The notes under the pieces: generated by a model
What the model was told of the DNA's origin: nothing
Seen by the model: only the letters and a program-made list of their open reading frames with translations
Databases searched by the model: none
Shown: positions 38,573 through 43,646 of the stretch, piece after piece
Numbering within the stretch: the stretch's first letter is position 1
How the letters are laid out: every line of letters starts with the position of its first letter
Translations under genes and position numbers: made by a program
Source: Sphingobacteriaceae bacterium
Lineage (GTDB): Bacteria; Bacteroidota; Bacteroidia; Sphingobacteriales; Sphingobacteriaceae
DNA length: 45,824 nt
Direction of reading: 5' to 3'
Assembly (NCBI GenBank): GCA_947479815.1
Contig: CANKAT010000018.1
Coordinates: forward strand, 1-45,824

Positions 38573-39691
38573 CTATATAAAAACCTCACCATGAGTCTTT
38601 TTTACTAAACTTTCTGTTAATGATGGGAATTTGTTTAAGGTATAAACTGCCATGTCTGAAACAAACGTACTACCAAATAATTTTTGTATCAGCCTCCCAC
38701 TTTTCAATCTAAGTGCAAATTGGTTTTCCCATCTATGGGTATAATCCTGTTCCAGGGCTGCTCTGTTAATGGTAGATCCTTTTTTTGCAAAACGCATGAT
38801 ACTTTCGGCGAGTATTTTGCCTGAATGAATGGCTATCGCCATACCATTACCGCAAAGCGGAGTGATCATTCCGGCAGAGTCACCGCAAAAAAGTAAATGG
38901 TTTTCTGTCAGCGTTTTCCGCTCAAAAGATATTTCATTAATTACCTCGGGCTTTTCAAATAGAAATTCCGAATTTTTAAACAGATTGCGCAAATTTGGGT
39001 TCCTAAAAAGTACCTCCTCTTCCATTTCAGGAATACCAGAATATTTTTTGAGATTGGCCGTTTCAGAAAGATAACAAAGGCAGTATTTATCATCTTCAAT
39101 TTTACTTACCCCGCAATACCCGCCCTCAAAATTATCAAGTCGAATTAGATTCCCGGGAAGGTCTGTTTTAATATGGTATTTAACACCCAAATAGGGGCTT
39201 CTTTTGTAAAAAAAGCTGCGGGTTAATTTTTGATCCAGATTAGATCTTTTTCCGTAAGCTGCAATGGCAATGGCTGATTCAAAAACCATGTTTCCGGAGG
39301 TCGAGATTCTGAATTTCTCTTCGGTAAATACAAGGTCAATAACCTTTTCAAAGATAAATTCTACTCCCAAACTTTTGGCATGCTGGTAAAGCAAATGATC
39401 AAGTTTGAAACGACTTATCCCAAATCCTCCAAGGTTAAGATCGGTTTGAAGAATTTTTCCTGAAACAGATGTCACCGCTAAACGATTTATTTGGGAGGTG
39501 CCCAGTTCAGAAATTCGAATATCCTGCGACTCTAAAAATGGTAAAACCTCATTTGATATATACTCGCCGCAAACCCTATGAAATGGATACTTCTTTTTTT
39601 CTATCAATCTGACCTGATATCCATTCTTCTGTAAAAGAATAGCAGAGGTTAAACCTGACAGACCCCCGCCAACAATCAGGATATCACTCAC
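38573..39691 (-). CDS. FAD-dependent oxidoreductase, geranylgeranyl reductase-like
   Basis: The 372-residue flavoprotein starts with a GTG at 39691 that overlaps the methyltransferase stop (8 bases). The FAD motifs are GGGLSG at 8-13, RVCGEYIS at 39-46 and CGDSAGMITPLCGNG at 269-283. The RxCGE motif and overall plan match the geranylgeranyl reductase/hydroxylase group, which either reduces prenyl double bonds or hydroxylates aromatic rings. It ends the operon started by the type III polyketide synthase, so it probably tailors that polyketide or a prenyl group attached to it (inference). The precise reaction is not deducible. Confidence 0.88.
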   Translation of the reverse strand: MSDILIVGGGLSGLTSAILLQKNGYQVRLIEKKKYPFHRVCGEYISNEVLPFLESQDIRISELGTSQINRLAVTSVSGKILQTDLNLGGFGISRFKLDHLLYQHAKSLGVEFIFEKVIDLVFTEEKFRISTSGNMVFESAIAIAAYGKRSNLDQKLTRSFFYKRSPYLGVKYHIKTDLPGNLIRLDNFEGGYCGVSKIEDDKYCLCYLSETANLKKYSGIPEMEEEVLFRNPNLRNLFKNSEFLFEKPEVINEISFERKTLTENHLLFCGDSAGMITPLCGNGMAIAIHSGKILAESIMRFAKKGSTINRAALEQDYTHRWENQFALRLKSGRLIQKLFGSTFVSDMAVYTLNKFPSLTESLVKKTHGEVFI

Positions 39692-40427
39692 CTTTGTTTC
39701 CAGGATTTTTATTTCCTGACTCCATTGTTTTGCTACTTTCTATACATACCTGCCATCTGAATGCCCACATCCATTGGATTGAATAATGTTTAAATCCTCC
39801 ATTTTTGAGCATTTGATTTATTTCTGTCCGTTTAAAACTTCTTAGTACCGAGAGTTTTGAATCGTGCTTAACCATTTCAGACCTTGAAAATACACGGGTA
39901 ATCAGGGCTATGGAATGATAGGCAAACCAATGCCTATGGAGGTCGTTGATCACTACATACGAGCTGGCACAATCGGCCATTTTTTGAATCAAACTGATCC
40001 AGTTGGGATCTGTAAAATGGTGGGTAAATAAACTTGAAATAACGATATCAAATTGATTAGAGACTAGTTTTTTACTCATTACATCGGCCAAAATGTAAGA
40101 AATCTCCGGAAAATCTGTTGATTTTTTTCTTGCATATTCTATAGCTGATTCTGTAGCATCAACACCTACCAGACTGATTTTTAAATTGCGTTTGCGAGCC
40201 CATTTTGCAATTACTCTCAATGAGTCTCCGCCGCCACAACCCCAGTCGCTAATGCACATGCCATCCTTGATTCCAATCTTTTTGAAGGCATTAAAAAAAA
40301 CAGTATAGCCCCCAAGTAGTTTGTTCACCACTTCAAGCTCATCCATTATTGGGTCGATGATGTCATGGCCAAGAGAAAAATCGTCCATCATTTCATCATC
40401 TGAACTTCGGTGTTTGAAATCAGGCAT
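39684..40427 (-). CDS. Class I SAM-dependent methyltransferase of the polyketide operon
   Basis: I start at the ATG 40427 (MPDFKHRS), giving 247 residues; upstream only TTG is available. The SAM-binding glycine motif is DWGCGGGDS at residues 61-69, followed by LVGVDATESAIEYAR and the DIVISSLFTHHF strand. The fold is the standard Rossmann methyltransferase, and the product may methylate an oxygen or carbon of the phenolic ring. It overlaps the polyketide synthase stop by 8 bases upstream and the flavoprotein start downstream, so the three genes are tightly coupled. Confidence 0.9.
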   Translation of the reverse strand: MPDFKHRSSDDEMMDDFSLGHDIIDPIMDELEVVNKLLGGYTVFFNAFKKIGIKDGMCISDWGCGGGDSLRVIAKWARKRNLKISLVGVDATESAIEYARKKSTDFPEISYILADVMSKKLVSNQFDIVISSLFTHHFTDPNWISLIQKMADCASSYVVINDLHRHWFAYHSIALITRVFSRSEMVKHDSKLSVLRSFKRTEINQMLKNGGFKHYSIQWMWAFRWQVCIESSKTMESGNKNPGNKGE

Positions 40428-41541
40428 TTTCAATTCTTTTCAAGATCATTGATTCAACGGTTAAGCCTGGCCCAAAGGCAAAGCCCATTATATTTTCACC
40501 ATCAATTCCCTCAGGGTCCATCATTAATTTTTTTAGAACAAATAGTATTGTTGCAGATGACATATTGCCGTATTCTCTTAAAACTTCGTAGCCAAAACGA
40601 TTAGCCATCATTGAAAATCCTAGAGCACTTTCTGCGGCTTCCAGAATTTTTCTACCTCCCGGATGAACGGCAAATTTGCTGATGTCTGTGAATTCGAGTT
40701 TTGCTTTTTTAAGCAATTCATTAGAAATGGATTGAATATGTTTTAAAATATGCTTGGATACTTTTGATGTCAGTGTCATTTCAAAACCTGCATCGCCAAC
40801 ATACCAGCCCATTTCATTTTTAGCTTCTTTCAGAAATTCAGAATAAAATGTATGAAGTGTAAAGCATTTTTTTTTATTCGTTCTTTCATAACTATTTTCT
40901 ACAATTACCGCTGCAGCACCATCAGAAAACAATGAGTTTGCAACCCAGTTATCTAGTGTGTTTGCCTTTTGAAAGTGTAATGTGCATAGTTCAACAGAAA
41001 CGATCAGAACTTTGGCCTCCTGATCAGCACGACAAATATAATCAGCTACTTTAAGCGCATTTAATGAGCCATAACAACCCATGAAATTTATACAGGTTCT
41101 TTCAACAGTAGGATTTAAACCTAATTTTTCAACCAGTTCAATGTCTATACCTGGTGCATGCATTCCTGTACAGCTTACGGTAATGAGGTGTGTGATCTTT
41201 GACGTTAGGGCTTTGCCATAATCTGAAAAACAATCGTTAACCGCCTCGACTGCTAAATCTGAAGCGGTACCCTGATATAATTGCAAGCGCTCGCGGGTTC
41301 CTGGAAATGGTTCAAAGTTCCCGGTCTTTCCAAAAAAAGTATTCTTGTGACTTTCTGTTTCGCCAAAATCTGGAATCACCGAATACCGGTGTTCGATTCC
41401 AGAATGATCATAGATTTGCTTTAATCTAGCTGCATTTGTAGCATTCAGGTCAAATGCTTTGATCATGAACCTATAGATTTCATTCTGTGGGATCCGGTAT
41501 TTTGGGTTGGCGGTACCAATCGCGCTAATGCAACTACTCAT
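40420..41541 (-). CDS. Type III polyketide synthase
   Basis: The 373-residue synthase has a complete chalcone-synthase-type triad: C156 in NFMGCYGSL, H293 in FAVHPGG and N326 in EYGNMSS, and the GFGP-type loop appears as GFAFGPG near 353-359. Type III enzymes extend an acyl-CoA starter with malonyl-CoA and cyclise the chain to pyrones, resorcinols or phloroglucinols. The starter cannot be read from sequence. The enzyme leads an operon with a methyltransferase and a flavoprotein, and a UbiA prenyltransferase diverges from it, so it is the core of a small biosynthetic locus. Confidence 0.96.
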   Translation of the reverse strand: MSSCISAIGTANPKYRIPQNEIYRFMIKAFDLNATNAARLKQIYDHSGIEHRYSVIPDFGETESHKNTFFGKTGNFEPFPGTRERLQLYQGTASDLAVEAVNDCFSDYGKALTSKITHLITVSCTGMHAPGIDIELVEKLGLNPTVERTCINFMGCYGSLNALKVADYICRADQEAKVLIVSVELCTLHFQKANTLDNWVANSLFSDGAAAVIVENSYERTNKKKCFTLHTFYSEFLKEAKNEMGWYVGDAGFEMTLTSKVSKHILKHIQSISNELLKKAKLEFTDISKFAVHPGGRKILEAAESALGFSMMANRFGYEVLREYGNMSSATILFVLKKLMMDPEGIDGENIMGFAFGPGLTVESMILKRIENA

Positions 41542-41658
41542 AATTCAGTAAAATACTAAATTTTTATCTTTTTGGATTTTAAGAGCAAAAGTTAGACCAT
41601 AATTAATTGATAATAGATCAAGAGCATCCCATTAACGTATTAAATGTTATTTTAGTAA
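41542..41658. promoter_or_regulatory. Divergent promoter region of the polyketide locus
   Basis: The 117-base gap separates the synthase (minus) from the UbiA-family gene (plus), so both are probably controlled from here. A near-match to the -7 box on the minus strand (TAACTTTTG, with 3 instead of 2 spacer bases) lies around 41587-41595. No exact TAnnTTTG was found on either strand. Confidence 0.4.
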
Positions 41659-42543
41659 ATGAATATTCTCAGAAATTTCTTTCCAACTGCATCCGCTTTT
41701 TTGCATTTACGCTTGTTGTTTTCAGTTTTTCTGATGCCCGTTTTTCTCTTTGCACTTTCTCAGGTACCAGAGATCAATTTGCAGAATACTATCTTAACAT
41801 TTATTATTTGGCATTTATTGGTTTACCCTGCCAGCAATGGTTATAATAGTTATTTTGACAAAGATGAAGGCAGTATTGCGCTTATAGAAACACCACCGCC
41901 AGTTGATAAAAGCCTATATTATTTTTCCCTGTTTCTTGATATTTTAGCGCTATTGCTCTCTCTCTATGTTGGTTGGATCTTATTTTTTGCTGTACTATTC
42001 TACGGGGTTATTTCTAAAATGTATAGCCATCCCACCTTCCGATTTAAAAAGTATCCCCTTTCAAGTTTTTTGATCGTATTTATTTTTCAAGGAGCTTTTG
42101 TGTATTGGAGTTCTTATGCTTCAATATCAGGACTAAATACCCTGGAGGGATGGAATTTGAATTTTACCCTTGCCGGATTAATCTGCTCCTGTCTAATTGG
42201 AGCTACTTATCCGCTAACACAGGTTTATCAGCATGAAGAAGATTCAAATCGGGGCGATTTAACCCTGAGTATTGTCTTAGGCATCCGAGGTTCTTTTTAT
42301 TTCTCTGCAATACTGTTTTTGTTCTCTTCTATTCTGCTTTATTTTTATTGGGACAGGTTAGAAATGATCACTAATTTTTGGATTTTTCTTGCTTTGGCTT
42401 CACCTGTTTTTATTCTGTTTAGCAATTGGTTTTTTGCTGTTTACCATGACCCATCTAAGGCAAATTTTAAGAATATGTCGCGCATGACACTTTTGAGCAG
42501 TATCATGATGCTCATCTATTTTGGCTTATTGAATATTATTTAG
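41659..42543 (+). CDS. UbiA-family prenyltransferase
   Basis: The 294-residue protein has about eight membrane helices and both UbiA-type Asp motifs. The first is NSYFD (63-67) followed by KDEGS, and the second EEDSNRGD near 193-200. UbiA enzymes transfer a prenyl chain to an aromatic or lipid acceptor with Mg2+. In other loci relatives make menaquinone, heme O or archaeal lipids. Here it diverges from a type III polyketide synthase operon, so a resorcinol-like polyketide is the likely acceptor (inference). The C-terminus overlaps the convergent GGCT-like gene by 8 bases. Confidence 0.85.
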   Translation: MNILRNFFPTASAFLHLRLLFSVFLMPVFLFALSQVPEINLQNTILTFIIWHLLVYPASNGYNSYFDKDEGSIALIETPPPVDKSLYYFSLFLDILALLLSLYVGWILFFAVLFYGVISKMYSHPTFRFKKYPLSSFLIVFIFQGAFVYWSSYASISGLNTLEGWNLNFTLAGLICSCLIGATYPLTQVYQHEEDSNRGDLTLSIVLGIRGSFYFSAILFLFSSILLYFYWDRLEMITNFWIFLALASPVFILFSNWFFAVYHDPSKANFKNMSRMTLLSSIMMLIYFGLLNII

Positions 42544-42988
42544 ACATGGAAACTACGAACTCAAGGTACTCCTGAGGTAGCTTATGTTCTTTAGCTCCTT
42601 CGGTGATACTTTTTAAATAGTCTTTTGATGGATAAATATTTTCATCATCCTGATCAGATATAAAAGTTAAAGCTGGAACATTACCCGTTTCCGTTTCAAT
42701 AGTAACATTGATTATACGATAGCCGGGCTCTGTAGATAGAAGCGTTTCTTTATATTTATTTTCAATTTCATAAATAGTGCCAAATACATCCTCAGATTCT
42801 GAAACAATGATATTAGCTCTTGCAGAACCTTCTGCATTTTTAAAATTAAAACGAAAGCCGTAATCCAGCAGTCTGCCCTGCCCAAAATTTTGAATGTTAC
42901 TTCCCGTTTTTTGCTCTAGAATACTTTTTTTCAAGTTGCTTGCATAAGCAAAATAGTTAAAGCTGTTAGTGTTTTCCATTCCACTCAT
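42536..42988 (-). CDS. Gamma-glutamylcyclotransferase-like (GGCT/AIG2) protein
   Basis: I place the start at the ATG 42988 (MSGMENTNS), since the longer frame opens with TTG; an ATG at 42979 is also possible. The product is about 150 residues, with the GGCT signature NYFAYASNL near the start (YGSNL in most relatives) and FGTIYEIEN plus a TEPGYRI segment. Such folds cyclise gamma-glutamyl amines or peptides to 5-oxoproline; the catalytic Glu is not certain here. It overlaps the HD-domain gene upstream and its stop overlaps the UbiA gene on the other strand. Confidence 0.8.
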   Translation of the reverse strand: MSGMENTNSFNYFAYASNLKKSILEQKTGSNIQNFGQGRLLDYGFRFNFKNAEGSARANIIVSESEDVFGTIYEIENKYKETLLSTEPGYRIINVTIETETGNVPALTFISDQDDENIYPSKDYLKSITEGAKEHKLPQEYLEFVVSMSK

Positions 42989-43646
42989 TGTAAAATTGTT
43001 CAAGGTATGTTAGCATAAACTGATGCCGCTCTTCTGCGATTCTTAGGCCTGTATCTGTATTCATTTTATCTTTTAATAACAGCAGCTTTTCGTAAAAGTG
43101 GTTAATGGTTGGGGTCTCAGATTTTTTATATTCCTCTTTACTCATAGTTAGTGCGGGAGGAATGTCAGGATTATATAATTCTCTATTTTTGAATCCGCCA
43201 AAGGTAAATGCTCTTGCTATTCCTATCGCCCCAATGGCATCCAGACGATCTGCATCCTGAACTACTTCCATCTCTTTGGAATGGAATTTGACCTGACCTA
43301 AGCTAGCTTTGAATGACATATTCCGTATAATCTGCTGAATATGAATAATGGTTTTTTCTTCTAGTCCTATTGAGTTGAGAAATTCTCCTGCCCGCTGTGG
43401 GCCGATCTCTTCATCACCATCATGGAACTTACTATCTGCAATATCATGAAGCAGGGCGGCAAGTTCGATTATAAAGGTGTCGGCCTGCTCTGTCTTTGAA
43501 ATCAGGATCGCATTGTTCCATACGCGCTGAATATGCCACCAGTCATGTCCACTTTCTGCACCCTGCAGGGTTTGCTTAACAAACTGTACAGTTTGGCTAA
43601 TAATACTCCTATTCTGCAGGTTTTGGCTCTCTTTTGCTACCTTCAT
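42966..43646 (-). CDS. HD domain phosphohydrolase
   Basis: A 226-residue YedJ-like metal-dependent phosphohydrolase. The HD signature is complete: H34 and H38 in GHDWWHIQRV, H67-D68 in LLHDIADSKFHDG, and the distal Asp in VQDADRLDAIGAIGIAR. Such enzymes hydrolyse nucleotides or related phosphate esters; no specific substrate is assignable. It begins 38 bases inside the THUMP methyltransferase gene and ends overlapping the GGCT-like gene, so the three share a transcript. Confidence 0.93.
   Translation of the reverse strand: MKVAKESQNLQNRSIISQTVQFVKQTLQGAESGHDWWHIQRVWNNAILISKTEQADTFIIELAALLHDIADSKFHDGDEEIGPQRAGEFLNSIGLEEKTIIHIQQIIRNMSFKASLGQVKFHSKEMEVVQDADRLDAIGAIGIARAFTFGGFKNRELYNPDIPPALTMSKEEYKKSETPTINHFYEKLLLLKDKMNTDTGLRIAEERHQFMLTYLEQFYNEWNGKH

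Follow-up and report, generated by a model that had tools for sequence, protein, structure and literature searches.

A type III polyketide synthase locus with a divergent UbiA-family gene in Bacteroidota, predicted to specify a prenylated phenolic lipid

A 45,824-nucleotide stretch from a Sphingobacteriaceae bacterium (assembly GCA_947479815.1, contig CANKAT010000018.1, positions 1-45,824 of the forward strand; hereafter the window) contains adjoining genes for a type III polyketide synthase (T3PKS), a class I S-adenosylmethionine (SAM)-dependent methyltransferase (MT) and a flavin adenine dinucleotide (FAD)-dependent oxidoreductase (the flavoprotein), with a gene for a UbiA-superfamily membrane protein reading away from them. 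The explanation we favour, with modest confidence, is that this set is the Bacteroidota branch of the T3PKS phenolic-lipid cassettes (srs, pkq, hid and agq) and would produce a methylated, ring-hydroxylated and prenylated alkylresorcinol lipid. As a system it is not new in kind: it is a widespread, uncharacterised relative of pathways already described, and many Bacteroidota carry this strongly conserved gene set, which probably makes a fatty phenol or quinone bearing an isoprenoid group. Two features depart from the known cassettes: a UbiA subfamily with fixed, non-canonical aspartate motifs, and a second operon type that lacks UbiA.

Arrangement, conservation and co-occurrence of the four genes

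Open reading frame (ORF) calls place the four genes where a sequence-only reading of the window had put them (Table 1). The MT and flavoprotein genes overlap by 8 bases, as do the T3PKS and MT genes when counted from the MT ATG (14 bases from the TTG), and the divergent gap of 117 bases is confirmed. Because of the overlaps, T3PKS, MT and flavoprotein are probably translationally coupled in one operon; the srs-type operon proposed in that reading is supported. Only a single T3PKS copy was found in the window's genome. At its 3' end, UbiA overlaps by 8 bases with a convergent AIG2-like gene on the opposite strand (42536-43003).

Table 1. Features of the locus, in window coordinates
Feature	Position	Strand	Basis
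T3PKS, predicted alkylresorcinol synthase	40420-41541	minus	Pfam Chal_sti_synt_N/C, catalytic triad
Class I SAM methyltransferase (MT)	39684-40433 from TTG; likely start is the in-frame ATG at 40427	minus	Methyltransf_25
FAD-dependent oxidoreductase, geranylgeranyl reductase/halogenase/hydroxylase superfamily; predicted ring hydroxylase	38573-39691, GTG start	minus	FAD_binding_3, fold
Membrane protein of the UbiA superfamily; predicted prenyltransferase, reading away from the operon	41659-42543	plus	PF01040, predicted fold
T3PKS-UbiA intergenic region, 117 bases, presumed divergent promoters	41542-41658		Coordinates, sequence

A search of genome contigs yielded 162 T3PKS relatives, and the best 80 loci were taken as a locus set, some of them ending at contig edges. 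Of these loci, 62 contain the complete four-gene set, so the grouping is not due to chance. The others lack only UbiA (10 loci) or only the flavoprotein (3), or hold T3PKS and UbiA alone (3) or T3PKS alone (2). UbiA is found within 68 of the 80 loci and is divergent in all 68, at a distance of up to 250 bases in 43 and of 251-900 bases in 25. Counting linked and unlinked copies together, 75 of the 80 genomes have it: seven of the 12 without UbiA at the locus carry a close UbiA elsewhere (310-473 bits), one of them (L011) being cut by a contig end. On the T3PKS strand the gene order is T3PKS-MT-FAD in 34 loci (35 including one with a split FAD gene), T3PKS-FAD-MT in 32 and FAD-T3PKS-MT in five, with fewer genes in eight. 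Since gene order varies, the overlaps are not universal, yet the set is widely kept.

Profile searches of 395 Bacteroidota genomes, drawn evenly from a larger group and assigned to families by code (f1, f4, f24 and so on), extend this picture. At E <= 1e-20, the T3PKS profile matches 179 genomes and the UbiA profile 60. T3PKS matches of at least 427 bits and UbiA matches of at least 268 bits fall in an identical set of 26 genomes, from 18 genera and seven families, and the flavoprotein is present in all 26. The T3PKS and UbiA genes are side by side in 20 of them (13 divergent, 7 tandem) and apart in six (G146, G190, G387, G072, G166 and G158), where linkage has been lost without the loss of either gene. 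The remaining 34 UbiA matches (110-151 bits) are all from family f24 (L157, L158, L159 and 31 more), with T3PKSs of 345-409 bits that never adjoin them. Families f2 and f5 include genomes (G007, G017 and G037) without a match to the T3PKS or UbiA profile. Co-occurrence of UbiA with the operon, which the sequence-only reading had named beforehand as the point on which its proposal could fail, thus holds in the full loci, in the linked and unlinked genomes and in the shared 26 of 395. Being a conserved neighbour that co-occurs even when unlinked, UbiA belongs with the T3PKS operon and is very probably a pathway partner of the synthase.

A quick tree of 88 T3PKS rows, which carried a long-branch warning, comprised the window, 18 of the 80 loci, 25 of 30 survey loci, 40 fetched regions and four plasmid rows; a duplicate of the window, four f24 rows and the five UbiA-less Mucilaginibacter loci were left out. 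In this tree, 44 UbiA-type T3PKSs and one Psychrobacter plasmid row make up a single 45-row fork (SH-like approximate likelihood ratio test, SH-aLRT, 90). The plasmid row is L177, from Psychrobacter urativorans plasmid 5; its T3PKS adjoins FAD and MT genes of opposite orientation, no UbiA was found anywhere on the plasmid, and its position inside the Bacteroidota fork makes T3PKS transfer between phyla possible. The Psychrobacter, Deinococcus and Microvirga plasmid T3PKSs all adjoin an MT (158, 122 and 128 bits, respectively, against the MT profile) and a FAD gene (57, 32 and 90 bits against the flavoprotein profile); the 6-kb flanks of the Deinococcus and Microvirga cassettes carry no UbiA annotation. 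The Streptomyces plasmid T3PKS (L180), which lies in a cluster with amino-acid adenylation and enoyl-CoA hydratase genes, stands far from the other rows, on an end branch of 3.32.

A second T3PKS operon type is represented by 32 genomes (families f4, f1 and f10) that have a close flavoprotein and no UbiA match. Two of its loci were listed, L151:5220-10540 (f1) and L154:3754-10091 (f4). In both, FAD, MT and T3PKS genes are followed by genes for a FabA-like dehydratase, a ketosynthase, an acyl carrier protein (ACP) and a phosphopantetheinyl transferase (PPTase); the four L154 proteins were run against Pfam, and L154 has one extra ORF after T3PKS. The synthases of L151 and L154 score 217 and 209 bits. 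They are of a different clade, at about 200 bits compared with 427-632 for the UbiA type, and stand apart in the quick tree.

Predicted functions of the four proteins

The synthase matches Chal_sti_synt_N with 107.3 bits and Chal_sti_synt_C with 77.8 bits (Pfam cut-off 27). Its Cys-His-Asn triad, reported as intact from the sequence alone, consists of C156, H293 and N326 and is invariant in 24 aligned homologues. With both domains and the triad present, it belongs to the type III polyketide synthases (chalcone synthase superfamily). The closest NCBIfam model is DpgA (NF042429), a 3,5-dihydroxyphenylacetyl-coenzyme A (CoA) synthase; at 173.9 bits, under the cut-off of 425, this identity was rejected. 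DpgA takes malonyl-CoA as its only substrate. Trp246 is invariant in all 24 aligned rows, and we take it to occupy the position of Gly256 of chalcone synthase (CHS) and hence, presumably, of Trp281 of ArsB. The ArsB residue has been linked to resorcinol formation (PMC9927152), so a Trp here could mark an alkylresorcinol synthase of the ArsB, SrsA or PkqA type. With Trp at this position in 86 of the 88 aligned T3PKSs it discriminates poorly; it was rejected as a clean resorcinol marker and is a weak sign. Alignment position 150, by comparison, varies among the 88 T3PKSs; the catalytic cysteine is C156. The MT scores 52.0 bits against Methyltransf_25, above the Pfam cut-off, and 145.4 bits against PRK06202, under the NCBIfam cut-off of 243. 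It probably methylates the polyketide ring, at an oxygen or at a carbon.

The UbiA protein matches PF01040 with 68.7 bits (Pfam cut-off 34.2). Its AlphaFold 2 (AF2) model, with a predicted local distance difference test (pLDDT) score of 91.6, superimposes onto 4tq4, an Archaeoglobus enzyme with dimethylallyl diphosphate (DMAPP) and Mg, with a Z score of 22.9 and a root mean square deviation (rmsd) of 3.2 over 267 residues. By domain and by fold it is a member of the UbiA prenyltransferase superfamily. The canonical motifs of these enzymes are NDxxDxxxD and DxxxD. Here, the first is replaced by NxxxDxD (N63-S-Y-F-D67-x-D69) and the second by QHxED (Q191-H192-x-E194-D195-x-x-R-G199-D200); the Arg is nearly invariant, and Asn63, Asp67, Asp69, Gln191, His192, Glu194, Asp195, Gly199 and Asp200 are invariant in 20 aligned rows. 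UbiA-type motifs on record include NDxxD (PMC3227686) and NxxxDxxxD (PMC4044012). The altered motifs would weaken the case for UbiA activity while being compatible with it, and prenyl transfer by the protein is likely.

Searches against sequences of the PDB, with the single sequence and with the profile, gave no match to the UbiA protein, nor did a search of plasmid sequences. In NCBIfam, only PRK12884 (34.5 bits) and PRK12882 (26.8 bits) were matched at E <= 0.001, far under cut-off. The window's genome has five UbiA-family genes; three of the other four pass cut-offs (ubiA_other with MqnP-like matches, CtaB and EboC) and one passes none. A role for the window protein as the menaquinone, heme O or Ebo prenyltransferase was rejected, as it misses the NCBIfam cut-offs and other genes fill those families. 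An hhalign comparison of its profile with the ubiA_other/MqnP-like and EboC proteins gave no useful alignment. The EboC-like gene of this genome (L085:1192-3063; 400 bits, cut-off 250) adjoins a frame resembling, by eye, a TatD-type hydrolase, perhaps as part of an ebo locus. Another UbiA-family protein of this genome (L086:1249-2127) stays under every NCBIfam cut-off, with a best score of 32.7 bits.

The flavoprotein matches FAD_binding_3, a family of many aromatic hydroxylases, with 37.5 bits (Pfam cut-off 22). A profile of 20 orthologues searched against the PDB scores CmlS (68.4 bits), Mpy16 (66.2) and PltA (53.7) above the geranylgeranyl reductase (GGR) 3oz2 (35.8). The AF2 model (pLDDT 89.5) is closest to PltA and ChlB4 (Z 36.6, rmsd 2.8-2.9, 357-358 residues), followed by 3-hydroxybenzoate 6-hydroxylase (Z 34.3) and GGR 3oz2 (Z 32.0). 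Domain and fold thus place the protein in the flavin hydroxylase/halogenase superfamily of the para-hydroxybenzoate hydroxylase (PHBH) type. It had at first been read as GGR-like because its best NCBIfam match is GG-red-SF (TIGR02032); at 97.0 bits it falls short of the family cut-off of 158.8. Fold comparison by itself is also compatible with a reductase, and the distribution of the protein is the more telling. At E <= 1e-60 it occurs in 82 of the 395 genomes, all among the 179 with a T3PKS match, and at 370 bits or more in 58, every one with a T3PKS match. Of these 58 genomes, 32 lack a UbiA match at E <= 1e-20; where T3PKS coordinates are listed, for 15 of the 32, the flavoprotein lies 714-880 bases from the synthase. 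The slot of the flavoprotein can also be occupied by a stronger FAD_binding_3 protein, as in L117 (f24; 199.6 bits) and in L178 of Deinococcus radiodurans (168.6 bits), which score only 43 and 32 bits, respectively, against the window flavoprotein profile. Because the flavoprotein travels with T3PKS without UbiA, and because proteins of an aromatic-hydroxylase family take its slot, a ring hydroxylase fits and a reductase of a UbiA-attached chain fits poorly. The protein resembles hydroxylases more closely than geranylgeranyl reductases, and ring hydroxylation is the predicted reaction.

Predicted pathway and rival explanations

In the pathway we favour, the T3PKS would use malonyl units to elongate a fatty acyl starter into a 5-alkylresorcinol, the MT would methylate its ring or a hydroxyl, the flavoprotein would hydroxylate the ring to give a hydroquinone, oxidisable to a quinone, and the membrane UbiA enzyme would attach an isoprenoid group. 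The predicted end product is a membrane-located alkyl-hydroquinone or quinone that is both methylated and prenylated. The data show how the genes are arranged, that the set is conserved, that UbiA co-occurs with the T3PKS and to which superfamilies the four proteins belong; we infer the reactions and their order, the lengths of the starter and prenyl groups and the cellular role. The chemistry put forward in the sequence-only reading is supported in part: UbiA belongs with the operon, and saturation of the chain by the flavoprotein is not supported. Through the tight pairing of T3PKS with UbiA, what had been an anonymous annotation becomes a four-enzyme pathway that can be tested. The pairing also sets the UbiA-type pathway apart from the second cassette, which has acyl-carrier genes of its own, and draws attention to a UbiA subfamily whose active-site motifs are unusual and fixed.

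Several findings weigh against this pathway. Both UbiA motifs are altered, the nearest NCBIfam model of the synthase is the malonyl-CoA-only DpgA, and Trp246 says little about the ring formed. MT is present in 24 of the 26 top-tier genomes, being absent from G190 and G371. Five of the 80 genomes in the locus set, all labelled Mucilaginibacter, have no UbiA at E <= 1e-10. The bit thresholds that define the shared 26 genomes were chosen after viewing the gaps in the scores, which are narrow for T3PKS (427 vs 409) and wide for UbiA (268 vs 151), and these genomes are related and so do not represent 26 independent events.

Were UbiA a co-inherited neighbour acting on a different substrate, or were it of UbiA fold but no longer able to transfer prenyl groups, its non-canonical motifs, its lack of any PDB sequence match even by profile, its absence from those five Mucilaginibacter-labelled genomes that retain T3PKS and from the surroundings of the Psychrobacter, Deinococcus and Microvirga cassettes would all find an explanation. 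This appears unlikely: the 26-genome match includes six genomes in which the two genes are unlinked, seven more genomes of the 80-locus set have UbiA off-locus, the residues that depart from the canonical motifs do not vary among the 20 rows, the fold is that of UbiA (Z 22.9), and the genome carries three further UbiA-family genes that score above the ubiA_other (MqnP-like), CtaB and EboC cut-offs. A synthase that, like DpgA, builds a small ring solely out of malonyl units, with UbiA supplying the sole lipid tail of a polyketide-headed isoprenoid quinone by a logic like that of UbiA, UbiG and UbiH, is quite unlikely. DpgA heads the NCBIfam matches, but with a score far under its cut-off. The second operon type, with its related MT and flavoprotein, has dehydratase, ketosynthase, ACP and PPTase genes and no UbiA, as though the tail could be supplied by either of two routes; the two types use different T3PKS clades, however, so they are not simple swaps. 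Moreover, planctomycetal T3PKSs of comparable operons are described as yielding pentadecyl- and heptadecylresorcinols (PMC10896814).

A flavoprotein that is a true prenyl reductase would saturate the UbiA-attached chain and give a dihydro- or perhydro-prenyl lipid, as the sequence-only reading had proposed. GG-red-SF is its top single NCBIfam match and a GGR structure lies less than 5 Z units from the best fold match (32.0 vs 36.6). In addition, Cys41 is part of a CGE motif that does not vary among 20 rows, and GGRs have a Cys motif at the corresponding position. The agq product is reported to bear a dihydrogeranyl group. Against this stand the sub-cut-off score, the halogenases and hydroxylases that head the profile and fold neighbours, the presence of T3PKS in 58 of 58 flavoprotein genomes with no UbiA match in 32, and the slot proteins of L117 and L178, which match FAD_binding_3 far better (199.6 and 168.6 bits vs 37.5); the geranylgeranyl reductase assignment is not supported on these grounds, and prenyl-chain saturation is decidedly improbable. 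Beyond the alkylresorcinol pathway we favour, it may be speculated, with little expectation of its being right, that a large part of Bacteroidota makes a second, polyketide-headed prenylated quinone beside menaquinone, through the T3PKS, the MT, a flavin hydroxylase and the UbiA subfamily with its altered diphosphate-binding motifs, as an alternative membrane redox carrier like the mycobacterial polyketide quinones. Should the lipid prove to be redox-active, quinone profiling as used in the classification of these bacteria would give an incomplete picture.

Relation to known cassettes and neighbouring genes

In agqABCD of Actinoplanes missouriensis, the T3PKS AgqA is accompanied by agqB-agqD, and the alkylresorcinol is then prenylated and hydroxylated (PMC10896814, PMC7692728, PMC3227686). 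AgqD is UbiA-like and O-prenylates the alkyl-methoxyhydroquinone (PMC3227686, PMC7692728), the reported products being alkyl-O-dihydrogeranyl-methoxyhydroquinones. This cluster is from another phylum; the likeness of the window set to its type (T3PKS, MT, hydroxylase and UbiA prenyltransferase) is one of four matching protein families, with the hydroxylase role in the window being predicted. In Gephyromycinifex, genes for UbiA, T3PKS, a methyltransferase and a FAD oxygenase also adjoin; unlike the window MT, this methyltransferase belongs to the isoprenylcysteine carboxyl type, and the locus has been proposed to take part in angucycline synthesis (PMC8779670). With agqABCD close in kind and the Gephyromycinifex locus on record, the statement in the sequence-only reading that such a gene set had not been described overstated its novelty.

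The srsABC operon of Streptomyces and pkqABC of Mycobacterium smegmatis and Streptomyces combine a T3PKS, a methyltransferase and a hydroxylase or oxidoreductase and convert an alkylresorcinol into a methylated benzoquinone; the pkqA-C products are polyketide quinones that serve as electron carriers (PMC9927152). Likened by description, they differ from the window set in being three-gene sets described without UbiA. The cyanobacterial hierridin cluster hidABC and a Planctomycetota operon also group MT, oxidoreductase and T3PKS, in another gene order and with alkylresorcinol-type products (PMC8086630, PMC10896814). One Raphidiopsis hierridin-like cluster includes a prenyltransferase (PMC8086630), which is the exception there and the rule in the window set; this likeness, too, is one of description. 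Planctomycetal T3PKSs, mostly from the MT-oxidoreductase-T3PKS operon, gave alkylresorcinols upon expression (PMC10896814). A UbiA gene near losA has been reported (PMC7587189). Genome mining has predicted T3PKS clusters in all Mucilaginibacter species (PMC9843747) and reported Bacteroidota T3PKS genes (PMC12565237). In the available text of a mainly open-access literature, our search found no product of Bacteroidota T3PKSs and no description of the four-gene set there.

A YceI-family gene lies 4-123 bases upstream of T3PKS, on the same strand, in 29 of the 80 loci, mostly Mucilaginibacter-labelled and including the five loci of UbiA-less genomes; the example at L014:7447-7980 scores 112.6 bits (Pfam). 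YceI proteins bind polyisoprenoids, which would fit the predicted pathway. A lipid/isoprenoid-binding protein is named in the planctomycetal T3PKS operon (PMC10896814). Downstream histidine kinase, PhoU-like and phosphate-transporter genes accompany many of the 80 loci and are probably mere neighbours. In two loci (L035:10278-10808 and L041:10222-10797), an extra ORF lies between the flavoprotein and MT genes, the start of which resembles, by eye, a haloacid dehalogenase (HAD)-type phosphatase.

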